A stretch of DNA of 64,000 nucleotides, taken from positions 310,001 to 374,000 of the forward strand of contig NZ_JANLCK010000003.1 in the NCBI RefSeq assembly GCF_024979315.1, read 5' to 3'. Positions within the stretch are counted from its first letter, which is position 1, and every line of letters begins with the position of its first letter. Positions 18,851-31,460 of the stretch are shown piece by piece. Source of the stretch: Herbiconiux oxytropis. GTDB taxonomy: Bacteria > Actinomycetota > Actinomycetes > Actinomycetales > Microbacteriaceae. The notes beneath the pieces are model-generated. The model was not told where the DNA came from and ran no database searches. It saw only the letters and a list, made by a program, of their open reading frames with translations. Position numbers and translations under genes: made by a program.

Positions 18851-19666
18851 TCAGGCGCCGGCCGGGGCTATCGCGTGGTGGCGGCCGATGGGGAGCATGA
18901 GGGGCTTGCCCGAGACCGGGTCGGGGATGACGCGGCTGTCGAGGCCGAACACCGTGCGCACGACATCCTCGGTGAGCACCGCGGTGGGGTCGCCCGCCGC
19001 GTGCACCCGGCCGCCCGCGAGCGCCACCAGGTGGTCGGCGTAGCGCGCAGCGAGGTTGAGGTCGTGCAGCACCATCACGATCGTGGTGCCGCGCCGCCGG
19101 TTGAGGTCGGTGAGGAGGTCGAGCACCTCCACCTGGTGGCTCACGTCGAGGAACGTCGTCGGCTCGTCGAGCAACAGCAGCTCGGTCTGCTGGGCGAGGG
19201 CCATGGCGATCCACACCCGCTGGCGCTGGCCGCCGGAGAGCTCGTCGACGGGGCGGTCGGCGAGGCCCGCGGTGTCGGTCGCGTCGAGGGCGTCGGCCAC
19301 CGCCGCGTCGTCGGCGGCGCTCCAGCGCGTGAAGATGCCCTGGTGCGGATGCCTGCCCCGGCCCACGAGATCCGACACCGTGATGCCCTCGGGTGCGATG
19401 GGCGACTGCGGGAGGAGCCCCATGGTGCGGGCGAGCTGCTTGGCCGGCATCCGGTGCACCTCCTTGCCGTCGAGCAGCACGTGACCGGTGCGCGGCGCGA
19501 GCAGTCGCGACATGGAGCGCAGCAGCGTGGACTTGCCACAGGCGTTGGCGCCCACGATGGCGGTCACCCTCCCGGGCGGCACCTCGAGGTCGAGCCCCTC
19601 GATGACCGTGCGGTCGCCGTAGCCCAGCGAGAGCGCCTCGGCGGTCAGGCGGTGGTCGGTGGTCAC
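18851..19666 (-). CDS. iron-siderophore ABC transporter ATPase
   Basis: FecE/FepC-type ATPase of 271 residues: Walker A GANACGKS, Q-loop PQSP, signature LSGGQRQRVWIAMAL, Walker B LLLLDEPTTFLD, switch VLHDLNLAARYAD. GTG start at 19666 overlaps the upstream permease stop by 4 bp (GTGA) and follows GGGAGG. Last gene of a four-gene iron operon; its stop lies 7 bp from the end of the convergent frameshifted gene, with no separate terminator visible. Confidence 0.93.
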   Translation of the reverse strand: MTTDHRLTAEALSLGYGDRTVIEGLDLEVPPGRVTAIVGANACGKSTLLRSMSRLLAPRTGHVLLDGKEVHRMPAKQLARTMGLLPQSPIAPEGITVSDLVGRGRHPHQGIFTRWSAADDAAVADALDATDTAGLADRPVDELSGGQRQRVWIAMALAQQTELLLLDEPTTFLDVSHQVEVLDLLTDLNRRRGTTIVMVLHDLNLAARYADHLVALAGGRVHAAGDPTAVLTEDVVRTVFGLDSRVIPDPVSGKPLMLPIGRHHAIAPAGA

Positions 19667-20757
19667 AGGGAGCCTCCCCGGCGGTTGGAACGGATGATGA
19701 GGTAGATCAGGTACGGCGCCCCGAGCACACCCGTGATGACACCGACCGGGTAGCGCGTGCCGAACGCGAACTGGCCCACGAAGTCGGCCACGAGCACGAG
19801 CAGCGCCCCCACGAGCCCTGCCGGCACGAGCAGCGGCGTGCCTGGGCCGACGAGACGCGACGCGATGGGCCCGGCGAGGAACGCCACGAACGCGATCGGT
19901 CCGCACGCCGCGGTGGCGAAAGCGATGAGGCCCACGGCGGTGACGATCGCGATGAGCCTCGTGCGATCCACCCGCACCCCGAGGGCCGACGCGGTGTCGT
20001 CGCCGAGCTGCGTGGTGCCGAGGTTTCGGGACTGGCCGAGCAGCACCGGCGTGAGCACGGCGAGGGCCACGACGACGGGCACGACCTGCGACCAGCTCGT
20101 GCCGTTGAGGCTGCCGGTGAGCCAGCGCTCGGCCTCCTGCAGATCCCACTGCGCTGCCTGGGAGAGCACGTACGCCGTGATGCTGTTGAGCATCGCCGCC
20201 ATGCCGATCCCGATCAGGATGAGCCGGGTGCCGGCCACACCGCTGCGATACGAGAGCGCGTAGATCAGGATGGCGACGACGAGCCCCGCCACGATGGCGA
20301 ACGCCGACACCGCCGTGGAGCCGAGCGAGAGCGTGACGATGGCGAAGGCCGCCGCGGCGCTCGCGCCGGAGCTGATGCCGATGATGTCGGGGCTCGCGAG
20401 CGGATTGCGGAGCATCGTCTGGAAGGTGACGCCGCCGAGGCCGAAGCAGAGCCCTGCGAGCACCGCGAGGCTCGCCCGGGGCAGGCGCAGGCGGCCGACC
20501 GTGAACGTGGCACCGGGCACGTCGCCGCCGAACATGACGGTGACGACGTCTGCCGGCGGGTAGAAGGTCTTGCCCACCATGAGGGAGACGGCGAACACCA
20601 CCAGGATGAGGGCGCTGAGCACGGCGATGACGATGCCGGCCCGCCGGTGGCGGAGCCGACGGCTGCGGGCCACCGCCTGCGCGGTCGAGAGGCTGGGGGA
20701 ATCGTCGCGCGCCTCGGCGGGTGGTGTGCCCTCGCCCGCCGCGATGACCGCGCTCAC
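19663..20757 (-). CDS. iron-siderophore ABC permease (FecCD family), second subunit
   Basis: 364-residue membrane protein of the FecCD family with about ten helices. Landmarks: LPRASLAVLAGLCFGLGGVT, RNPLASPDIIGISSGASAAA, LGDDTASALGV, ACGPIAFVAFLAGPIASRLVG and VGVITGVLGAPYLIYLI. The long hydrophilic N terminus (about 35 residues) precedes the first helix. GTG start 20757 overlaps the first permease gene stop by 4 bp. It forms a heterodimer with that subunit. Confidence 0.92.
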   Translation of the reverse strand: MSAVIAAGEGTPPAEARDDSPSLSTAQAVARSRRLRHRRAGIVIAVLSALILVVFAVSLMVGKTFYPPADVVTVMFGGDVPGATFTVGRLRLPRASLAVLAGLCFGLGGVTFQTMLRNPLASPDIIGISSGASAAAAFAIVTLSLGSTAVSAFAIVAGLVVAILIYALSYRSGVAGTRLILIGIGMAAMLNSITAYVLSQAAQWDLQEAERWLTGSLNGTSWSQVVPVVVALAVLTPVLLGQSRNLGTTQLGDDTASALGVRVDRTRLIAIVTAVGLIAFATAACGPIAFVAFLAGPIASRLVGPGTPLLVPAGLVGALLVLVADFVGQFAFGTRYPVGVITGVLGAPYLIYLIIRSNRRGGSL

Positions 20758-21827
20758 AGGGCTCGCACCTTCTGCCGCCGCACGATCCAGATGAACACCG
20801 GCGCCCCGATGAGCGCCGTGATGATGCCCACGTCGATCTCGGAGGGCCGAGCCACGATGCGGCCGAGCACGTCGGCGCCCGTGAGGAGCGCCGCACCGAC
20901 GACGGCCGAGAACGGCACCAGCCCGCGGTGGTCGACGCCCACGATGAGCCGGCAGGCGTGCGGCACCACGAGGCCGACGAACGCGATGGGTCCGCACACC
21001 GCGGTGGCGGCACCGCACAGCACGACCGAGCCGAGGGCCGCGGCGCCGCGGGTGAGGGCTACGCGCTCGCCGAGGCCGGCCGCGAGCTCGTCGCCGAGGG
21101 CGAGGGAGTTGAGGCCCTTGGCCGAGAGCAGGCAGATGACGAATCCGGCCAGCAGGAAGGGCAGCACCTGGTTCAGGGCCGTGAAGGTGGCTCCGCCCAC
21201 GCCGCCGATGAGCCACGCCCTGGCGGCCTCGCCGATGTCGGCGCGCGGCAGCACGACGGCGCTGATGAACGAAGCGAGCGCGGCCGAGGTGGCGGCCCCC
21301 GCGAGAGCGAGCTTGAGCGGTGTGGCACCGCCGCGCCCGAGGGAGCCCACGGTGTAGACGAAGACGGCCGCGACGGCGGCGCCGCCGATGGCGACCCAGA
21401 TCTGGGTGGTGGCCGAGGAGAGCCCGACGAAGGCGATGAACGTCACGACGGCGAGCGAGGCGCCCATGTTGATGCCGAGCACGCCGGGGTCGGCGAGCGG
21501 ATTGCGCGTGACGCCCTGCATGACGGCTCCCGAGACGGCGAGGGCTGCGCCGACGAGCACCGCCACGAGGGTGCGGGGGATGCGGGTGGCGACGGCGGCG
21601 GGGCCGAAACCCTCGGTCTGCCCGCCGAGCGCGGAGAGCACGTCGCCCCACTCGACCTCGCGGGAGCCGACGAGCACGGAGGCCGCCATGACGGCACCGA
21701 GCACCGCGAGCGAGATGACGAGCCCGAGGGCGCGCACGCGCCTCGGGCGCCGCACGACGGCGGCGCCCGAGGGAGGAGGCGGGGTGGCGGTCTTCAGGGC
21801 CGTCACCGCATCCGGGACTCGGCTCAC
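20754..21827 (-). CDS. iron-siderophore ABC permease (FecCD family), first subunit
   Basis: 357-residue FecCD permease: IPRTLVAVLVGAALAVSGAV, RNPLADPGVLGINMGASLAV, LGDELAAGLGERV, VCGPIAFVGLVVPHACRLIV and DVGIITALIGAPVFIWIV. GTG start at 21827 overlaps the binding-protein gene by GTGA. The membrane part carries the iron-chelate imported from the binding lipoprotein. Confidence 0.92.
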   Translation of the reverse strand: MSRVPDAVTALKTATPPPPSGAAVVRRPRRVRALGLVISLAVLGAVMAASVLVGSREVEWGDVLSALGGQTEGFGPAAVATRIPRTLVAVLVGAALAVSGAVMQGVTRNPLADPGVLGINMGASLAVVTFIAFVGLSSATTQIWVAIGGAAVAAVFVYTVGSLGRGGATPLKLALAGAATSAALASFISAVVLPRADIGEAARAWLIGGVGGATFTALNQVLPFLLAGFVICLLSAKGLNSLALGDELAAGLGERVALTRGAAALGSVVLCGAATAVCGPIAFVGLVVPHACRLIVGVDHRGLVPFSAVVGAALLTGADVLGRIVARPSEIDVGIITALIGAPVFIWIVRRQKVRAL

Positions 21828-22861
21828 TTGGCCTTGTCGGCGGCCGCGGCCAGCAGCTCGAGGTAGTCGTCGAGCACCCACGAGATCGACAGCGGGGTGG
21901 GGTTCGCGGCGGTGCCGAGCGGGCTCGTGCCCGGGAGGCTCACGATCGAGCCGTTCGCCACGGCGGGCACCTGCGAGAGCAGCGGGTCGCCCTCGAGGGT
22001 CGTGACGAGGTCGTCGCCGCCGTAGGTGACGATGAGGTCGACGTCGGCGAAGGTGTCGGCCTGCTCCGAGCTCACCGTGAGCGAGAAGTTCTCGGTGGTG
22101 GCGGAGGCATCGGCGATGCTCTTCGGGGTCGACAGGCCGAGGTCCTCGAAGAAGGCGGCGCGGGTGTCGTGCGTCGTGTAGAAGCTGACCTCGCTGAGGT
22201 CGGCGGTGTCGACGTGGGTGAGGAACATGGCCGAGGTGCCCTCGAGCTGCGGGTACTCCGCAGCCGAGTCGGCGATCTCCTGCTCGAGCTCGGCGATGAG
22301 GGCGTCGCCCTCCTCGGCGAGGCCGAGGCCCTCGCTGTTGAGGTGGATCATGTCGCGCCACGAGGTTCCCCACGCGGTCTCGGGGTAGGCCACGACGGGG
22401 GCGATCTCGCTCAGGGTGTCGTAGTCCTCCTGCGTGAGCCCCGAGTAGGCGGCGAGGATGACATCCGGAGCGGTGTCGGCCACGGCCTCGAAGTCGATGC
22501 CGTCGGTCTCGTCGAACAGCACGGGCGTCTCGGCGCCGAGCTCCTCGAGCTTCTCGTCGACCCAGGGCAGCACGCCGTCGCCGTCGTCGTCGCCGAAGTT
22601 GGCCGCGGCCATGCCGACGGGCACGATGCCGAGGGCGAGCGGCACCTCGTGGTTGGCCCAGTTGACGGTGGCGACGCGCTCGGGCTTCGTCTCGATCGTG
22701 GTGGTGCCGAGGGCGTGCTCGATGGTGATGGGCGTGAACTCCGTGTCCCCACCGGCGGCGGCGGAGCCGTCCGAACCGGAGGAGGGGGTGGAGCACGCGG
22801 CGAGGCCGGCGGTGAGCAGGGCTGCCGTCGAGAGAGCGAGCAGTCGAGAAGCGCGGGGCAT
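21824..22861 (-). CDS. iron-siderophore-binding lipoprotein
   Basis: FepB/FhuD-type (peripla_BP_2) binding lipoprotein of 345 residues. Signal peptide with lipobox LAAC (Cys22). Typical segments: TIETKPERVATVNWANHEVP, FEAVADTAPDVILAAYSGLT, LSISWVLDDYLELL. First gene of the iron operon; a double DtxR/IdeR-type iron box begins 9 bp upstream of the ATG, so expression should rise when iron is scarce. Confidence 0.92.
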   Translation of the reverse strand: MPRASRLLALSTAALLTAGLAACSTPSSGSDGSAAAGGDTEFTPITIEHALGTTTIETKPERVATVNWANHEVPLALGIVPVGMAAANFGDDDGDGVLPWVDEKLEELGAETPVLFDETDGIDFEAVADTAPDVILAAYSGLTQEDYDTLSEIAPVVAYPETAWGTSWRDMIHLNSEGLGLAEEGDALIAELEQEIADSAAEYPQLEGTSAMFLTHVDTADLSEVSFYTTHDTRAAFFEDLGLSTPKSIADASATTENFSLTVSSEQADTFADVDLIVTYGGDDLVTTLEGDPLLSQVPAVANGSIVSLPGTSPLGTAANPTPLSISWVLDDYLELLAAAADKAK

Positions 22862-22869
22862 GGGGGCCT

Positions 22870-22893
22870 TTCGGTTAGGATTGCCTAACCGAA
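22870..22893. promoter_or_regulatory. double DtxR/IdeR iron box
   Basis: A perfect palindrome with 10-bp arms TTCGGTTAGG and CCTAACCGAA and a 4-base centre. It can be read as two 19-bp DtxR sites offset by 5 bp: TTCGGTTAGGATTGCCTAA (22870-22888) and TTAGGATTGCCTAACCGAA (22875-22893). Read in the better orientation, each matches 15 of 19 positions of the consensus TTAGGTTAGGCTAACCTAA, as I recall it. It lies immediately upstream of the iron-binding lipoprotein gene. Confidence 0.8.
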
Positions 22894-23049: not shown

Positions 23050-26000
23050 ATGTCCGCCATGCCCGACAGCACCCCGCACCTCCAGCCCGAACTCGACCGG
23101 GCCTCGGGGGCGGCGTCACCCCGCACCCTGATCGACGTGCTGCGAGCCGCGACGGCGCGGAATCCCGAGGCATCGGCCCTGGAGGATGCGCAGGGTGCCC
23201 TGAGCTACCGCGAGCTGATGGCGCGCGTGCATGCGACCGCCGCCGAGCTCCACGAGGCCGGTGTGCGGCGCGGTGACCGCGTCGGCATCCGGATGGAATC
23301 GGGGCGGCGCGAGCTCTACATCGCCATCCTCGCGGTGCTCGCGGCAGGTGCCGCCTACGTGCCGGTCGATGCCGACGACCCCGAGGAGCGGGCCGAGCTC
23401 GTGTTCGGCGAGGCGCGCGTAGCGGGCATCATCACGGGCACGGGGGAATTCGCCCCTGCGGAGACGGAGACGGAGACCGCGCCGGAGCGGGCGGCCAGGC
23501 TCTTCGCCCGTGGCGAGCCGCACGCGAGCACGGCGTCGCTCCCCGTGGTCTCGCCGCCCGAGCCCGAGGACGACGCCTGGATCATCTTCACCTCCGGCTC
23601 CACGGGCACCCCCAAGGGTGTGGCCGTGACCCACCGCTCCGCCGCCGCCTTCGTCGACGCCGAGTCGCAGCTGTTCCTCACCGGGGAGCCGATCGGCCCC
23701 GGCGACCGTGTGCTCGCGGGGCTCTCGGTGGCCTTCGACGCCTCGTGCGAGGAGATGTGGCTCGCCTGGGCGCACGGCGCCTGCCTCGTGCCCGCGCCGC
23801 GCTCGCTCGTGCGCAGCGGCATGGACCTGGGGCCCTGGCTCGTGACCCGCGACATCACGATCGTCTCGACCGTTCCCACGCTCGCGGCCCTCTGGCCCGT
23901 GGAGTCGCTCGAGAACGTGCGGCTGCTCATCTTCGGCGGTGAGGCCTGCCCGCCCGAGCTCGGCGAGCGGCTCGCGAGCGGCGGCCGGGAGGTCTGGAAC
24001 ACGTACGGGCCCACCGAGGCCACCGTGGTCGCGTGCGCCGCGCCGCTCGGCGGCCCGGGACCGGTGCGGATCGGGCTCCCGCTCGAGGGCTGGACCCTCG
24101 CGGTGGTCGACGGCGACGGCGCCCGTGTGGCCCCCGGCGAGGTCGGCGAGCTCATCATCGGGGGAGTGGGCCTCGCGCGCTATCTCGACCCCGAGAAGGA
24201 TGCCGAGAAGTACGCCGCCATGCCCTCGCTCGGCTGGGAGCGCGCCTATCGCAGCGGCGACCTCGTGCGCTACGACCCCGAGGGACTCGTGTTCCAGGGC
24301 CGCGCCGACGACCAGGTGAAGGTGGGCGGCCGGCGGATCGAGCTCGGCGAGATCGAGTCGGCCCTGCAGGGCCTCCCGGGGGTCTCGGGTGCCGCCGTGG
24401 CGGTGCGCACGACCGGCGCGGGCAACCAGGTGCTCGTGGGGTACGTCGTGGCGGCCGATCCGGCGTCGTTCGACCGGGAGACCGCCGTGGCGCGGCTGCG
24501 CGAGGAACTGCCGGCGGCGCTCGTGCCGCTCGTGGCCGTGCTGGAGGACCTCCCCACCCGAACCTCCGGGAAGGTCGACAAGGCCGCCCTGCCCTGGCCG
24601 CTGCCCGCCGGCGCCGGCTCCGGCGACGCCTCGGAGGGCGAGGGCGGCTTCGGGCCCGACGCCGATCCGATGCTCGTGCGGGTGGCCGGGCTCTGGACCG
24701 ACGTGCTCGGCGTGCCGGTCACCGACCCGGCCGCCAACTTCTTCGACCTCGGCGGCGGCTCGCTCGCGGCGGCCCAGCTCGTGGCCGGCCTCCGCCGCAT
24801 CGACCCGGGCTTCACGGTCGCCGACGTGTACTCCCATCCGCGCCTCGGTGCCGTGGCCGCCGAGCTCTCGGTGCGGGTCGGTGCGGCGGATGCTGACGAG
24901 GCCGACACCGCCGGCGGGCGGGCCTCCTCAGCGCCCGTGGCCGAGACCCCGCTCCGGATGCGCGTGCTGCAGACCCTGCTCGGCATCCCCCTGTTCGTGC
25001 TCGCGGGCCTGCGCTGGCTCGTCTACCTCTTCACCGCCACGGCCGTGCTCACGGCCGTCGGCGGCTTCGGCTTCCTGCCGACCGTGCCGCTCTGGCTCCT
25101 GATCGTCGGTCTCGTGCTCTTCGCCACGCCGTTCGGCCGCATGGGCATTTCAGTCATCGCCTCGCGGCTGCTCCTCCGGGGCCTCCGCCCCGGCAACCAC
25201 CCGCGGGGCGGCCGGTGGCACCTCCGACTCTGGCTCGCCGAGCAGATCGCGCACCAGGTCGGAGCCGTGAGCCTCGCCGGAGCGCCGTGGATCAACTACT
25301 ACGCCCGCGCCCTCGGCGCCCGCATCGCCGACGACGTCGACCTGCACTCGCTGCCGCCGGTCACCGGCATGCTCACGGTGGGTCGCGGCGCCTCGATCGA
25401 GCCCGAGGTCGACCTGTCGGGCTACTGGATCGACGGCGACACGGTGCGGGTGGGCGCGGTGCGCGTGGGCGCCGGCAGCACGGTGGGCGCCCGCAGCTCG
25501 CTGCTGCCGGGCACCCGCATCGGCAAGCGCGCCGAGATCGAGGCCGGCTCCTCGGTCTTCGGGCGCGTGCCCTCCGGACAGCGCTGGGCAGGCTCGCCCG
25601 CCCGTCGCGTGGGCAAGGCCCGCGACTGGTGGCCGTCCGCGCGCCCTGCTCGCGGCTCCAGGTGGCTCGTGGCCTACGGCGCCTCCTCGGTGGTGATGGC
25701 GGCTGTTCCGCTCATCGCCTACGCCTCGGGCGGCGCGGTGCTCGCCGTCTTCCTCCGCGACTCCGCCACCCTCGGCGAGGCCGCCGGCCGGGCCGCGCTC
25801 GGTCTCGTGCCCGGCGTGCTCGTGGCCGGCGTCGTGCTCGCCGGGCTCGTGCTCGTGCTCACCCGGCTCCTCGGCCTCGGCGTCTCCGAGGGGGTGCACG
25901 CCGTGCGCGGCCGCGTGGGCTGGCAGCTCTGGGCCACCGAGCGCCTGCTCGACCTCTCGCGCACCGTGCTCTTCCCGCTCTACTCCGGTCTCTTCACCCC

Positions 26001-27129
26001 CGTCTGGCTCAGGCTCCTCGGCGCCCGCATCGGGCGCGACGTCGAGGCCTCGACCGTGCTTCTCATCCCCGCCATGACCACGGTGCACGACGGCGCCTTC
26101 CTCGCCGACGACACGCTCGTGGGCGCCTACGAGCTCGGCGGCGGCTGGATGCGCGTGGCGCGCGCCCAGATCGGCGAGCGGGCCTTCCTCGGCAACTCGG
26201 GCATGGCCGCGGCCGGGCACTCCGTGCCGCGGGACGGCCTCGTGGCCGTGCTCTCGGCCGCTCCCCGCAAGGCGAAGGCGGGCTCGTCGTGGCTCGGCTC
26301 CCCGCCCGTGCGCCTCCGCCGCACGGTCAACGCCGCCGACGCGAGCCGCACCTACGCCCCGCCGGCCCGGCTCAAGGTCGCGCGCATCCTGTGGGAGCTC
26401 CTGCGCATCGTGCCGGTCATCGTGACCTGCGCCCTCGGCGTCTCGGTGCTGTTCGTGCTCGCCGCCCTCACCGCGTGGGCGGGGGTGCTCGTGGCGGCAC
26501 TGCTCTCGGGCGTGGTGCTGCTCGCGGCCGGAGCGGTGGCCGCGGCCGTCAGCACCGTGGCCAAGTGGGTGCTGATCGGGCGGATCCGGGCCGGTGAGCA
26601 TCCGCTCTGGTCGTCGTTCGTGTGGCGGAGCGAGGTGTCGGACACCTTCACCGAGATGGTCGCCGCACCCTGGTTCGCCGAGGCCGCCGCCGGCACCCCC
26701 GCCCTCGTCTGGTGGCTGCGGAGCCTCGGTGCGAGGATCGGCCGGGGCGTCTGGATCGACACCTACTGGCTGCCTGAGGCCGACCTCGTGACCCTGGGGG
26801 ACGCCACGACGGTCAACCGCGGATGTGTGGTTCAGACGCATCTGTTCCATGATCGAGTGATGAGCCTCGACACGGTCACCCTCGACGACGGCGCCACGCT
26901 CGGCCCGCACAGCGTCATCCTGCCCGCCGCCCGCATCGCCGCGCAGGGCACCGTGGGGCCCGCCTCGCTCGTGATGCGGGGGGAGCTCGTGCCCGAGGGC
27001 AGCCGCTGGAGCGGCAACCCGATCGGGCCGTGGCGCGAGGTGCGCACCTCCGACTACGGCGCGCACCCGCCGACGCCGGCCGACGCCGGGGCCGGGGCCG
27101 GATCCGCCGTGCGCACGGTGGTCGCGTGA
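23050..27129 (+). CDS. Pls/PosA-type single-module non-ribosomal peptide synthetase (A-T-membrane-LbH)
   Basis: 1359-residue membrane peptide synthetase, by layout like streptomycete epsilon-poly-L-lysine synthetase. Adenylation domain about 25-520: IIFTSGSTGTPKG (178-190), FDAS (229-232), NTYGPTE (317-323), YRSGDLVRYD (400-409), A10 Lys508. Carrier domain with DLGGGSLAA, phosphopantetheine Ser571. About six helices in pairs (around 640-700, 870-950, 1115-1170) alternate with three hexapeptide left-handed beta-helix regions (about 750-860, 985-1080, 1225-1335), the family's C-terminal domain thought to make peptide bonds. No condensation or thioesterase domain, no HHxxxDG. Pocket residues D230 A231 E234 T277 I294 G296 T318 V326 V327 K508 suggest a diamino acid. 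Alternative ATG at 23059. GTGA overlap with the peptidase gene. Confidence 0.88.
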   Translation: MSAMPDSTPHLQPELDRASGAASPRTLIDVLRAATARNPEASALEDAQGALSYRELMARVHATAAELHEAGVRRGDRVGIRMESGRRELYIAILAVLAAGAAYVPVDADDPEERAELVFGEARVAGIITGTGEFAPAETETETAPERAARLFARGEPHASTASLPVVSPPEPEDDAWIIFTSGSTGTPKGVAVTHRSAAAFVDAESQLFLTGEPIGPGDRVLAGLSVAFDASCEEMWLAWAHGACLVPAPRSLVRSGMDLGPWLVTRDITIVSTVPTLAALWPVESLENVRLLIFGGEACPPELGERLASGGREVWNTYGPTEATVVACAAPLGGPGPVRIGLPLEGWTLAVVDGDGARVAPGEVGELIIGGVGLARYLDPEKDAEKYAAMPSLGWERAYRSGDLVRYDPEGLVFQGRADDQVKVGGRRIELGEIESALQGLPGVSGAAVAVRTTGAGNQVLVGYVVAADPASFDRETAVARLREELPAALVPLVAVLEDLPTRTSGKVDKAALPWPLPAGAGSGDASEGEGGFGPDADPMLVRVAGLWTDVLGVPVTDPAANFFDLGGGSLAAAQLVAGLRRIDPGFTVADVYSHPRLGAVAAELSVRVGAADADEADTAGGRASSAPVAETPLRMRVLQTLLGIPLFVLAGLRWLVYLFTATAVLTAVGGFGFLPTVPLWLLIVGLVLFATPFGRMGISVIASRLLLRGLRPGNHPRGGRWHLRLWLAEQIAHQVGAVSLAGAPWINYYARALGARIADDVDLHSLPPVTGMLTVGRGASIEPEVDLSGYWIDGDTVRVGAVRVGAGSTVGARSSLLPGTRIGKRAEIEAGSSVFGRVPSGQRWAGSPARRVGKARDWWPSARPARGSRWLVAYGASSVVMAAVPLIAYASGGAVLAVFLRDSATLGEAAGRAALGLVPGVLVAGVVLAGLVLVLTRLLGLGVSEGVHAVRGRVGWQLWATERLLDLSRTVLFPLYSGLFTPVWLRLLGARIGRDVEASTVLLIPAMTTVHDGAFLADDTLVGAYELGGGWMRVARAQIGERAFLGNSGMAAAGHSVPRDGLVAVLSAAPRKAKAGSSWLGSPPVRLRRTVNAADASRTYAPPARLKVARILWELLRIVPVIVTCALGVSVLFVLAALTAWAGVLVAALLSGVVLLAAGAVAAAVSTVAKWVLIGRIRAGEHPLWSSFVWRSEVSDTFTEMVAAPWFAEAAAGTPALVWWLRSLGARIGRGVWIDTYWLPEADLVTLGDATTVNRGCVVQTHLFHDRVMSLDTVTLDDGATLGPHSVILPAARIAAQGTVGPASLVMRGELVPEGSRWSGNPIGPWREVRTSDYGAHPPTPADAGAGAGSAVRTVVA

Positions 27130-28439
27130 CCGGGCGCGGTGTCGCATTCTCCGGGGATCCCTACACGCCGGGCATCGGCACCTGGTCGTACCGCGTGCAC
27201 TCCTACGACCTCGAGCTCGACTACCGGATCGAGACGAACCGCCTCGACGGCGTCGCCCGGATCAGCGGCGAGGCCGTCGTCGACCTCCCCGCCATCCTGC
27301 TCGACCTCTCGAAGCTCAAGGCCACGAAGGTCCGGCTCGACGGCAGGCGGCTGCAGCGGATCACGCAGAACACGCACACCCTCACCGTGCGGCCGGATGC
27401 ACCCATCCCGGCCGGCACCCGCTTCGAGCTCGAGATCGAGTACGGCGGCAGGCCGGGCCCCCGCAGGAGCGCGTGGGGCCCGATCGGCTGGGAGGAGCTC
27501 GCCGACGGCGTGCTCACGGCCTCGCAGCCCTCGGGTTCGTCGACCTGGTTCCCCTGCAACGACCGGCCGGGCGACAAGGCGAGCTATCGCATCCGCCTCA
27601 CCGCCGACCAGGACTACACCGTGGTCTGCAGCGGCACCCTCACCGAGCAGCGCACCCGGAGCGGGCGCACCACCTGGGTCTACGACCAGCCCCGGCCCAC
27701 GGCCGCCTACCTCGCGACCGTGCAGATCGGGCAGTACCTGCGGCGGACAGACGACTCCGGCGCCGTGCCCGTCGACTACGCGTTCCCGGCCGAGCTCGAG
27801 GGGCGGCTGCGGGCCGACTTCTCGCCGCTGCCGCACATGCTCGACTTCTTCGCGCGGGAGTTCGGCCCGTACCCCTTCGACCGCTACGGCGTGGTCGTGA
27901 CCGCCGACGAGCTCGAGATCCCGCTCGAGGCGCAGGCGATGGCCATCTTCGGGGCCAATCACGTCGACGGCGCGGGCGGATCCGAGCGGCTGATCGCGCA
28001 CGAGCTCGCGCATCAGTGGTTCGGCAACAGCGTGGGCGTGGCGGCCTGGAAGGACATCTGGCTCAATGAGGGCTTCGCCTGCTACGCCGAGTGGCTGTGG
28101 TCGGAGGAGCGCGGCGGGTCACCGGCGGCGCAGCTCGCCCAGGAGCACTACCTGCGGCTGCGGCAGGCGCCGCAGGACCTCGTGATCGGCGAGCCGGGGG
28201 CTGCCTCGATGTTCGACGACCGCGTCTACAAGCGCGGCGCCCTCACGCTGCACTTCCTGCGCGCCGAGATCGGCGACCCCGCGTTCTTCGCGCTGCTGCA
28301 GGCCTGGACGAGCGAGCACGCGCACTCCACGAGCGACACCGCCGCCTTCGTGGCCCTCGCCGAGGAGCACGCGGGCCATCCGCTCGCCGCCTTCTTCGAC
28401 GCCTGGCTGAACCACCCCGCCCTGCCCTCGCTCGCCTGA
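27126..28439 (+). CDS. M1-family zinc metallopeptidase coupled to the Pls-like synthetase
   Basis: 437-residue gluzincin: HELAH (292-296) and Glu315 give the HExxH-x18-E zinc site, and the VYKRGALTLHFLR segment supplies the catalytic Tyr. The exopeptidase GxMEN motif is replaced (LEIPLEAQAMA), seen in some short M1 members. The C-terminal ARM domain of long aminopeptidases is absent. No signal peptide, so cytosolic. GTG start overlaps the synthetase stop (GTGA), tying translation of the two. In epsilon-poly-lysine producers the polymer-degrading enzyme is a zinc aminopeptidase (from memory), so this enzyme may trim or protect against the polymer (inference). Confidence 0.85.
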   Translation: MTGRGVAFSGDPYTPGIGTWSYRVHSYDLELDYRIETNRLDGVARISGEAVVDLPAILLDLSKLKATKVRLDGRRLQRITQNTHTLTVRPDAPIPAGTRFELEIEYGGRPGPRRSAWGPIGWEELADGVLTASQPSGSSTWFPCNDRPGDKASYRIRLTADQDYTVVCSGTLTEQRTRSGRTTWVYDQPRPTAAYLATVQIGQYLRRTDDSGAVPVDYAFPAELEGRLRADFSPLPHMLDFFAREFGPYPFDRYGVVVTADELEIPLEAQAMAIFGANHVDGAGGSERLIAHELAHQWFGNSVGVAAWKDIWLNEGFACYAEWLWSEERGGSPAAQLAQEHYLRLRQAPQDLVIGEPGAASMFDDRVYKRGALTLHFLRAEIGDPAFFALLQAWTSEHAHSTSDTAAFVALAEEHAGHPLAAFFDAWLNHPALPSLA

Positions 28440-28503
28440 TTCGGCTAGTGTCGAGTGGACACGACGTGCCCCGTTCTGGGGCACCCGGATCAAGGAGGAT
28501 CAC

Positions 28504-29724
28504 GTGTCATCGAACAGAGCCGTCGCCTACAAGGGCCCTGGGGTCGTCGAGGTCATCGACATCGACTACCCCGAATTCGAGCTGAAGGACGGACCGGGGG
28601 TGAACCCGGCCAACGTGGGCCGGAAGGTCCCCCACGGCGCCATCCTGCGCACCGTCGCCACCAACATCTGCGGATCGGACCAGCACATGGTGCGCGGTCG
28701 CACCACCGCGCCCTCCGACCTCGTGCTCGGCCACGAGATCACCGGCGAGGTGGTGGAGGTCGGTCCCGACGTGGAGTTCGTGAAGGTGGGCGACATCGTC
28801 TCGGTGCCGTTCAACATCGCCTGCGGCCGCTGTCGCAACTGCAAGGAGCGCAAGACCGGCATCTGCCTGAACGTGAACCCGGATCGCCCCGGCAGCGCCT
28901 ACGGCTACGTCGACATGGGCGGCTGGGTCGGCGGGCAGGCCGAGTTCGTGCTCGTGCCCTACGCCGACTGGAACCTGCTGGTGTTCCCGGACCGCGACCA
29001 GGCGCTCGAGAAGGTCATGGATCTCACGATGCTCTCGGACATCTTCCCGACCGGCTTCCACGGAGCCGTCACCGCGGGTGTCGGCGTCGGCTCCACGGTG
29101 TACGTCGCGGGAGCGGGCCCCGTGGGCCTCGCTGCCGCGACCGGTGCCATGCTGCTGGGTGCCGCCGCCGTGATCGTGGGCGACATGAACGAGGAGCGGC
29201 TGGCCCAGGCGCGCAGCTTCGGCTGCGAGACGATCGACCTCACGAAGGGCGACCCGGCCGAGCAGATCGAGCAGATCCTCGGCGTGCCCGAGGTCGACTG
29301 CGGCGTGGACGCCGTGGGCTTCGAGGCGCGAGGGCACGGCGGCGACTCGGGGCACGAGGCCCCGGCCACGGTGCTGAACTCGCTCATGGACATCACGGCC
29401 GCGGGTGGTGCCCTCGGCATCCCGGGCCTCTACGTCACGGGTGACCCGGGCGGCATCGACGACGCCGCCAAGAAGGGCGCGCTCTCGCTCAGCCTCGGCA
29501 CGGGCTGGGCGAAGTCGCTCTCGTTCACCACCGGGCAGTGCCCCGTGATGAAGTACAACCGCGGGCTCATGATGGCGATCCTGCACGACAGGGTGCACAT
29601 CGCGAAGAACGTCAACGCCACGGCGATCACGCTCGAGGATGCGCCGCGCGGCTACGCGGAGTTCGACGCGGGAGCCGCGCAGAAGTACGTGCTGAACCCC
29701 AACGGGTACCTCGACGCCGCGTAG
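28504..29724 (+). CDS. fdhA: glutathione-independent formaldehyde dehydrogenase-like zinc enzyme
   Basis: 406-residue zinc medium-chain dehydrogenase of the FdhA type (Pseudomonas formaldehyde dismutase/dehydrogenase, about 400 residues). Catalytic zinc ligands Cys56 (NICGSDQH) and His77-Glu78 (GHEITGEV). Structural zinc cysteines 107, 110, 113 and 121 (CGRCRNCKERKTGIC). Rossmann motif GAGPVGLAAA. The insert around AYGYVDMGGWVGGQAEFVLV is typical. GTG start with AAGGAGG 5 bases upstream. It oxidises formaldehyde or other short aldehydes with tightly bound NAD. It is probably a separate unit from the synthetase locus it interrupts. Confidence 0.85.
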   Translation: MSSNRAVAYKGPGVVEVIDIDYPEFELKDGPGVNPANVGRKVPHGAILRTVATNICGSDQHMVRGRTTAPSDLVLGHEITGEVVEVGPDVEFVKVGDIVSVPFNIACGRCRNCKERKTGICLNVNPDRPGSAYGYVDMGGWVGGQAEFVLVPYADWNLLVFPDRDQALEKVMDLTMLSDIFPTGFHGAVTAGVGVGSTVYVAGAGPVGLAAATGAMLLGAAAVIVGDMNEERLAQARSFGCETIDLTKGDPAEQIEQILGVPEVDCGVDAVGFEARGHGGDSGHEAPATVLNSLMDITAAGGALGIPGLYVTGDPGGIDDAAKKGALSLSLGTGWAKSLSFTTGQCPVMKYNRGLMMAILHDRVHIAKNVNATAITLEDAPRGYAEFDAGAAQKYVLNPNGYLDAA

Positions 29725-29766
29725 GCGTTCCGGCGGGTTCTGCCGGGTTTCGGCGGGTCCCGTCCG

Positions 29767-30543
29767 CTACCGGCGGGCGGCGTGCTCGAGCTCGGCGAGC
29801 TCGAGGCGCCGCCAGCTGGTGAGCGGCACCACGGGCTTCTTCTTGAGGGCGCCCGCCAGGCGCACCGCCACGCTCGCGCGGAGGGCGGGGTCGAGCCGCA
29901 GGTCGGCCACGGCGTACTCGCCGGCCTCGGCGTCGCGGCCCGCCGTGGCCTCGATCGCGCCGTCGCGCGTGCGGATGAGCACGTCGGCCGGGTCGAGCGC
30001 GAGGCCGCGGCCGTCGGCCTTGACGACCGCCTCGAGGCGGGTCCAGTGCTGGATGGGCTCCCACTGCCGGCCGGCGGGCCGCGACGCCGTGGGCACGAGG
30101 GCCGTGACGGCCGCGAGCTGCTCGACCGTGGCATCCGCCGCCTCGATGTCGATGCCCACGGGCCCGCGCCAGGTGGCGGCGACCGCCACGCCTGCGGGGG
30201 AGTGGGCCACGCTCACGCTGATCGGGCGGCCCTTCGGTGAGGCGAGCGCGAGCTGCGGGCGGCCGTGCGGTCCGCCGCACACCGCGCAGTGCGCCGTGAC
30301 CACCAGGTCGACCGGATGCACGGGGTCGCCACCGCGGGCGAGCGCGTGCTCCGAGACGAGCTCGGCGGCGAGCACCCGGAGGGCTGCGCGGCCGACCACG
30401 AAGCGCGTGGCCGCCGCCTCGTCCGTGGTGGCCGCACGGCGCATCCGCTCGTCGTCGCCGAGGAACGGGGCGAGGGCCTCGACGTCGGCTGGGCCCGTGC
30501 CCGCCGGCAACGGGGTCCAGCGCACGTGCACCCGGGGGGTCAT
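29767..30543 (-). CDS. 4'-phosphopantetheinyl transferase (Sfp type)
   Basis: Transfers phosphopantetheine from CoA to the carrier Ser of peptide or polyketide synthases. 258 residues, Sfp-like length. Signatures: FVVGRAALR (substrate segment), SVSVAHSPAGVAVA, GPVGIDIEA (Mg-binding Asp/Glu) and WTRLEAVVKADGRGL (WTxxEAxxKA). Four cysteine/histidine residues (TAHCAVCGGPHG) are usual in this actinobacterial branch. Overlaps the polyphosphate kinase gene by ATGA. It is the only such enzyme in the window and lies 2.6 kb from the Pls-like carrier domain, its probable client. Confidence 0.88.
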   Translation of the reverse strand: MTPRVHVRWTPLPAGTGPADVEALAPFLGDDERMRRAATTDEAAATRFVVGRAALRVLAAELVSEHALARGGDPVHPVDLVVTAHCAVCGGPHGRPQLALASPKGRPISVSVAHSPAGVAVAATWRGPVGIDIEAADATVEQLAAVTALVPTASRPAGRQWEPIQHWTRLEAVVKADGRGLALDPADVLIRTRDGAIEATAGRDAEAGEYAVADLRLDPALRASVAVRLAGALKKKPVVPLTSWRRLELAELEHAARR

Positions 30544-31460
30544 CGGGCCGGCCGCTGCTCGCCGCGCTCGTAGATGTCGGCGGCAGACCCGACGATCTTC
30601 GTGTCGGTCTCGCCGACGACCTCCACGTCTTTGTCGTCGTAGTCGAAGCGGTTGAGCACGAAGCGCATGGCCTCGAGTCGTGCGCGCTTCTTGTCGTTCG
30701 ACTTCACGACGGTCCAGGGCGCATCGGCGGTGTCGGTGGCCTCGAACATGGCCTCCTTGGCCCGGGTGTAGCGGTTCCACTTGTCGAGCGACTCGAGGTC
30801 CATGGGCGAGAGCTTCCACTGCCGCACCGGATCGACCATGCGGATGGCGAAGCGCGTGCGCTGCTCCTCGGCCGAGACCGAGAACCAGAACTTCACGAGG
30901 TCTATGCCGTCGCCCGCGAGCATCGACTCGAACAGCGGCACCTGGCGGATGAACTCGTCGTACTGCGCATCGGTGCAGAAGCCCATGACGCGCTCGACGC
31001 CCGCCCGGTTGTACCAGGAGCGGTCGAACAGCACCATCTCGCCGGCCGCCGGGAGGTGGGCGACGTAGCGCTGGAAGTACCACTCGGTCGACTCGCGCTC
31101 CGTGGGCTTCTCGAGCGCCACCACGCGCGCGCCGCGGGGGTTGAGGTGCTCGGTGAAGCGCTTGATCGTGCCGCCCTTGCCTGCGGCATCACGGCCCTCG
31201 AACACCACCACGAGGCGGCGGCCGCCGCGCTTGATCCAGTTCTGGAGCTTGAGGAGCTCGATCTGCAGGAGGCGCTTGGAGGCCTCGTACTCGGTGCGGC
31301 TCATCCGCTCGTCGTAGGGGTAGCCCTCGCGCCAGGTGTCGACGAGGCTGCCGTCGGTGCGCACGAGCACGGGGTCGTCATCGTCGTCGTCGAGCACCGT
31401 GAAGCCGAGGAGGTCGTCGAGTTCCGCCGGAACAGGCCGGCCGCTGAAGAGGGTCGTCAC
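30540..31460 (-). CDS. ppk2: polyphosphate kinase 2 (PPK2)
   Basis: Uses polyphosphate to phosphorylate ADP or GDP (class I PPK2), 306 residues. Walker A EGRDAAGKGG (88-97), Walker B FDRSWYNR (145-152, Asp146), lid WKLSPMDLESLDKWNRYTRA, and WYFQRYVAHLP. An acidic run (LDDDDDDP) lies in the N terminus. Its stop overlaps the phosphopantetheinyl transferase start, a pairing that suggests shared control. A role in feeding ATP to polymer synthesis is speculative. Confidence 0.9.
   Translation of the reverse strand: MTTLFSGRPVPAELDDLLGFTVLDDDDDDPVLVRTDGSLVDTWREGYPYDERMSRTEYEASKRLLQIELLKLQNWIKRGGRRLVVVFEGRDAAGKGGTIKRFTEHLNPRGARVVALEKPTERESTEWYFQRYVAHLPAAGEMVLFDRSWYNRAGVERVMGFCTDAQYDEFIRQVPLFESMLAGDGIDLVKFWFSVSAEEQRTRFAIRMVDPVRQWKLSPMDLESLDKWNRYTRAKEAMFEATDTADAPWTVVKSNDKKRARLEAMRFVLNRFDYDDKDVEVVGETDTKIVGSAADIYERGEQRPAR

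Follow-up and report, generated by a model that had tools for sequence, protein, structure and literature searches.

The genome of Herbiconiux oxytropis carries a gene for a large single-module synthetase that is followed directly by a gene for a zinc peptidase and, somewhat further on, by genes for a phosphopantetheinyl transferase (PPTase) and a polyphosphate kinase 2 (PPK2). This arrangement raises the question of which polymer the locus makes and which of these neighbours take part in making it. The locus lies in a stretch of 64,000 nucleotides (G000:C23:310001-374000, hereafter the window) from a 4.1-Mb genome that is 98% complete. A preliminary description, made from the nucleotide sequence of the window, proposed an undescribed system for a cationic isopeptide polymer with polyphosphate as energy source or counter-ion. 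The analysis presented here leads to a plainer answer: the locus is very probably an ordinary pls-pldII operon, whose synthetase (Pls) would be activated by the PPTase and would make epsilon-poly-L-lysine, and whose M1 peptidase would trim the product.

The class of the synthetase can be read from its domains. Pfam places AMP-binding at residues 32-377, AMP-binding_C at 434-508 and PP-binding at 544-605, and TIGR02353 matches residues 639-1325 with 726.9 bits against a cut-off of 423.1 (E = 2.5e-218), over profile positions 1-695 of 695. As judged from this combination of an adenylation-thiolation (A-T) module with a terminal domain that scores above the curated cut-off, the protein is a member of the Pls/PosA family, the synthetases of non-alpha poly-amino acids (NAPAA). 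At E <= 0.001 Pfam gives five families, none of them a condensation or thioesterase family, and the A-T synthetase devoid of such domains that had been described earlier is thus borne out by the Pfam set and by the clear match of its C-terminal region to TIGR02353. An AlphaFold2 model of residues 614-1359 (mean predicted local distance difference test score 87.6, predicted template modelling score 0.88; 42 sequences) contains three pairs of long helices, at approximately 635-708, 870-942 and 1106-1175, each pair leading into a block of short strands. A hydropathy scan is consistent with three membrane helix pairs, and scan and model together give the arrangement by which the family is recognised. 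Of the paired membrane helices and three beta-helix regions first claimed for this domain, three of each are present in the model, while a single hexapeptide stretch passes the Pfam cut-off and matches in the PDB are weak: Foldseek gave partial matches to serine, maltose and other hexapeptide acetyltransferases (best E 1.5e-4, template modelling (TM) score on the query 0.12), and no whole-domain fold match, the TM score on the query being at most 0.14 among the 50 matches listed. As modelled, the terminal domain agrees with the published model of PosA, the delta-poly-L-ornithine synthetase of Acinetobacter baumannii, a member of the same family for which three helix pairs and as many beta-helices are described (PMC10522769; here and below, papers are cited for parts of their text). 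The synthetase was found in 16/16 Herbiconiux genomes, in pieces in G007 and as a fragment only in G008, and the Pls of G014, a near twin of the window genome, is 95-97% identical to that of the window.

Gene order in related Microbacteriaceae, which the preliminary description had proposed to compare, keeps the M1 peptidase gene beside pls. In the window the two genes share the four nucleotides GTGA, as had been noted before. A frame-checked stop/start overlap of 4 nt occurs in 85/139 loci, the other junctions being 22 with a 1-nt overlap of unchecked frame and 32 of other kinds. M1 is next to pls in 16/16 Herbiconiux genomes, in 80/80 named loci (the best 80 of 591 confirmed stretches; 75/80 within 170 bases), and in 15/16 further loci chosen from 95 class-level matches, the one miss being L167. 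A survey of 199 Microbacteriaceae genomes, with E cut-offs that were chosen by the authors (pls 1e-100, M1 1e-60, PPTase 1e-10, PPK2 1e-80), gave totals of 81 genomes for pls, 80 for M1, 89 for PPTase and 82 for PPK2. M1 is present in 80/81 genomes with pls and in 0/118 without it, a count in which only some first-look candidates were scored and weaker M1 relatives in the genomes lacking pls are uncounted, and it lies at most 144 bases from the pls match in 80/80 genomes holding both. The one genome that has pls and, at the cut-offs used, neither PPTase nor M1 is G143, where the sole Pls match (L197, G143:C8:20000-32000) covers residues 192-451 at 81% identity inside a 259-kb contig; we infer a decaying locus in which all three genes have been lost.

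Gaps of 637-2155 between pls and M1 are found in Tsukamurella and Williamsia, and the intervening genes are absent from the window. In L113 and L120 (Tsukamurella) the gap contains a frame on the same strand which by eye is GNAT acetyltransferase-like and might act on the polymer, and L124 has the same pls-M1 gap as L120. In L135 and L136 (Williamsia) it contains a frame on the opposite strand, again named by eye, which resembles a DoxX-like membrane protein.

The peptidase itself (P0002) is, by its motifs, of the M1 aminopeptidase type, with HEXXH and a downstream glutamate, and both PF01433 and PF17900 score above their cut-offs. All 140 rows (139 sequences and P0002) have the zinc ligands H292, H296 and E315 together with the catalytic E293, and they also share E268, Y368 and R370, of which we take E268 and Y368 to be the amino-end-binding glutamate and the catalytic tyrosine of M1 enzymes. 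The nearest solved relatives by sequence, yet distant ones, are the short M1 peptidases 6a8z and 6iff (about 430 residues aligned, 7.3e-49). These presumably come from Deinococcus, and we know of no link between the Deinococcus enzyme and a Pls. A simple hydropathy scan, used in place of a trained predictor and taking in as many as 60 residues ahead of position 16 of the open frame without regard to the true start, found no hydrophobic N-terminus on M1 in 138/139 rows, the window included; the sole exception, L153, has a Tat-like N-terminus. Because the window M1 shows no export signal, an intracellular site of action is the most likely one for the Herbiconiux enzyme.

The PPTase gene belongs to a pair with the PPK2 gene which runs opposite in strand to pls and M1 and lies approximately 1.3 kb past the end of the peptidase gene; this ATGA-coupled pair had been reported in the preliminary description and is confirmed. 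The ACPS superfamily domain of the PPTase is barely above its cut-off (25.6 bits against 25.0), and G130, D132, W167, E171, A172 and K175 are invariant in 16/16 aligned sequences. The gene is present in 16/16 Herbiconiux genomes, that is, in 15/16 examined stretches and in the window, the stretch without it (L023) being a piece of G007 from which the M1 side is missing. A homolog occurs in 35/80 of the named loci, in genera which we take to be Micrococcales. In the family survey it is found in 80/81 genomes with pls against 9/118 without, and by genus in 40/40 of those with pls, 4 genera having a PPTase and no pls and 41 having neither. This co-occurrence strengthens the earlier link between PPTase and synthetase, and so does the content of the window's genome, in which PF00550 (E <= 0.01) finds two carrier domains, that of Pls and that of a fatty-acid-type acyl carrier protein (ACP) whose gene is flanked by frames that by eye resemble FabH and FabF, while PF01648 matches one short AcpS-size frame and the PPTase of the locus. 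Since the genome holds these two carrier domains and a single Sfp-type PPTase, the latter probably activates the carrier domain of Pls.

The alternative that survives best is that the PPTase serves the genome as a general activator and stands beside pls by chance. In its favour, 9/80 genomes with pls have no PPTase match within 6 kb of pls; in the other 71/80, however, there is a match within that distance (the one nearer pls being counted where a genome has two). Nine genomes without pls do carry a PPTase, and it is kept in 4/10 genomes without pls from pls-bearing genera (an incomplete list, with 98 genomes lacking pls outside it), yet it is missing in the other 6/10, and in 7/9 of the genomes with PPTase and no pls a PPTase has a different carrier-domain gene at a distance of some 7 kb or less. 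Four such neighbours were inspected and comprise two EntF-like nonribosomal peptide synthetases, one acetoacetyl-CoA-ligase-type frame and one frame without a match; the PPTase of G093 and of G146 has no carrier-domain neighbour to explain it. A third carrier domain that a general activator might serve was not found in the window's genome with PF00550 at E <= 0.01, and chance placement is considered rather unlikely. No pls-linked PPTase is described in the titles and abstracts searched or in the passages used from PMC4361855, PMC11078359 and PMC4668381, a search that had most full texts and most subscription journals outside its range.

The polymer that a PPTase-activated Pls would make is predicted from its adenylation (A) domain. 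The closest solved relative of Pls by sequence is 7WEW, the A domain of an epsilon-poly-L-lysine synthetase (E 4.4e-185), with 64% identity over aligned positions. The pocket pattern of gramicidin synthetase was the guide by which the pocket positions were placed by eye. The residues obtained, D230, A231, E234, S273, I294, G296, T318, V326, V327 and K508, read DAESIGTVVK, and all ten are the same as in 7WEW; they are spaced in the same way as the PosA residues reported in PMC10522769. The same code occurs in 138/139 Pls rows that reach the pocket, with some genomes represented twice and with L058 (valine at position 5) as the exception, in a set which leans to the same pocket because the search words for the named loci included CEEMWLAW, and in which L035-L062 are the best-scoring loci of the family-wide pls search. 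According to PMC10522769, position 2 distinguishes the substrates, alanine going with lysine, methionine with ornithine, and phenylalanine with diaminopropionate or diaminobutyrate. Because position 2 is alanine and all ten residues equal those of 7WEW, the pocket points to lysine, rather than ornithine or diaminobutyrate, as the substrate, and epsilon-poly-L-lysine is the predicted product of the window locus. The cationic isopeptide polymer of the preliminary description is thereby supported as a prediction, with lysine as the favoured unit.

Another polymer, namely delta-poly-ornithine, gamma-poly-diaminobutyrate or beta-poly-diaminopropionate, might be considered on the ground that the synthetases of these polymers belong to the same family and have the aspartate and glutamate at pocket positions 1 and 3 in common with the window Pls (PMC10522769). 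This is very unlikely, given that position 2 is neither the methionine of the ornithine type nor the phenylalanine of the diaminopropionate/diaminobutyrate type, and given the full identity with 7WEW; the pocket of A. baumannii PosA reads DMEHNGTVSK, and a paralog of the phenylalanine type in G085 and G147, with the pocket DFECLSVVTK, is just 31% identical to the window Pls. The paralog is a second family synthetase of these two genomes (L195 4355-9418, + strand; L196 1612-5898, - strand), and in L195 it scores 664.8 bits with TIGR02353. A PPTase homolog lies near this second synthetase of L195/L196, and G199 also holds a 31% match.

PPK2 was considered as a functional partner of this Pls and rejected: it is a local neighbour and no conserved part of the system. 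The proposal that PPK2 supplies ATP, or that polyphosphate acts as counter-ion, is unsupported and is the least probable of the alternatives, for although the PPK2 and PPTase genes overlap by ATGA in the window and adjoin in 7/14 Herbiconiux genomes where this is readable (window included), and although PPK2 lies downstream in L064 and adjoins the PPTase in G059, G129 and G183, no PPK2 was seen next to the PPTase in the remaining 7/14, its best match is on another contig in G006 and G010, and its association with pls over the family is weak (48/81 genomes with pls against 34/118 without).

A pls-pldII operon is not a new kind of locus, and the claim of an undescribed system fails for this reason. 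In Streptomyces albulus, pls and pldII form an operon with a 4-nt overlap (PMC4361855), repression of pldII leads to chains longer than 40, and PldII degrades the polymer (PMC9223678). The window locus resembles this operon in the kind of synthetase, in the ten pocket residues of 7WEW and in having a peptidase as the next gene with a 4-nt overlap; it differs in the PPTase gene close by and in an A domain whose identity to 7WEW stops at the 64% given above. A pls-peptidase operon is likewise published for Corynebacterium variabile, in a paper which cites PldII as a polymer-degrading enzyme, which identifies the product of the C. variabile gene, by expression in S. coelicolor, as epsilon-poly-L-lysine, and which lists Pls homologs for Microbacterium (PMC8117764). 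C. variabile belongs to another family of Actinomycetota, and its operon is likened to that of the window by description. NAPAA clusters have moreover been reported in Herbiconiux from antiSMASH (PMC10011130). For A. baumannii PosA, the word 'peptidase' is absent from the main text of PMC10522769.

Several observations weigh against this reading of the locus. C. variabile was polymer-free until its own gene was placed behind the S. albulus promoter in Streptomyces (PMC8117764), so that the window locus may be silent as well; in the literature consulted, no polymer product was found for any member of the Microbacteriaceae. PldII of S. albulus is reported to lie outside the membrane (PMC9223678), in contrast to the window M1, which shows no export signal, and the metal-binding residues that the same paper models in PldII (D44, T45, D173, K174) do not suit an M1 site. 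The window M1 is tied to S. albulus PldII only by way of a bridge, L153: the Pls A domain of L153 is 78% identical to 7WEW, the nearest among those examined, and its next gene encodes an M1 that is 42% identical to P0002. L167 (G583), with a Pls 43% identical to that of the window, has no M1 homolog in the 9.8-kb stretch examined, and two more distant M1 homologs (40%) are encoded elsewhere in the window's genome. No PPTase homolog was found in the examined stretches of the Nocardia, Rhodococcus and Mycobacterium loci among the best 80 of 591, and the Fisher tests on co-occurrence ignore kinship between genomes.

With these points taken into account, the operation of the locus can be pictured as follows. 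The PPTase would convert the carrier domain of Pls into its holo form, and the A domain, given its identical pocket residues, would activate L-lysine. The membrane-embedded terminal domain would then join lysine units by way of the side-chain amino group, giving epsilon-poly-L-lysine, and would move the polymer across the membrane, as is reported for the family. The coupled M1 peptidase would hydrolyse the polymer from its amino end, setting the chain length and protecting the producer, as has been proposed for PldII of S. albulus.

The features of the locus are collected in the table.

Table. Features of the predicted polylysine locus and adjoining genes, with positions counted from the first nucleotide of the window.
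Feature	Position	Strand	Remarks
pls, predicted epsilon-poly-L-lysine synthetase	23050..27129	+	1359 aa; A-T plus TIGR02353 terminal domain
Adenylation domain of Pls	23143..24573	+	residues 32-508; ten pocket letters as in 7WEW
Thiolation (carrier) domain of Pls	24679..24864	+	residues 544-605; motif LGGGS
Pls/PosA terminal domain	24964..27024	+	residues 639-1325; presumed polymerisation/export part
pldII-like M1 zinc peptidase	27126..28439	+	437 aa; HELAH at 292-296, third zinc ligand E315
Glutathione-independent formaldehyde dehydrogenase	28504..29724	+	TIGR02819, 752 bits against a cut-off of 637
Sfp-type phosphopantetheinyl transferase (PPTase)	29767..30543	-	probably activates the carrier domain of Pls
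Polyphosphate kinase 2 (PPK2)	30540..31460	-	ATGA overlap with the PPTase gene

The formaldehyde dehydrogenase gene, which the preliminary description passed over, fills the gap between the M1 and PPTase genes. It was rejected as a part of the system, being there only in the window and in G014 among the Herbiconiux stretches searched, and is a local insertion. On the other side of the locus, genes for siderophore-type ATP-binding cassette uptake (binding protein, permeases and ATPase, named by eye) lie divergent from pls at 18851-22861, and between them and pls stands a palindrome, TTAGGATTGCCTAA (22875-22888), which we take to be iron-box-like. The uptake genes were also set aside as partners, for among the 17 sequences compared the binding-protein frame was found to adjoin pls in just two, the window and G014. 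A reading as a defence system was rejected as well, PADLOC giving no match (E <= 0.001) for Pls, M1, PPTase or PPK2.

Epsilon-poly-L-lysine is used as a food preservative (PMC8117764), and its producers outside Streptomyces have been little tested. The near-strict co-occurrence of pls with M1 and PPTase over the 199 Microbacteriaceae genomes names a likely activator of the synthetase, and a peptidase that shows no export signal points to an intracellular role; the PPTase as a near-obligate partner in the Microbacteriaceae and a peptidase of this kind may both be new to the literature. A further proposal, for and against which we see the odds as evenly divided, is that the polylysine system of the Microbacteriaceae is a three-gene unit that is kept or lost together, consisting of Pls, a cytosolic PldII-like M1 that trims or detoxifies the polymer, and a PPTase which in the window's genome would have Pls as its only client. 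If this proposal is true, loss of the PPTase would shut off polymer formation and leave everything else unaffected, and the whole unit would be transferable to a host for production.

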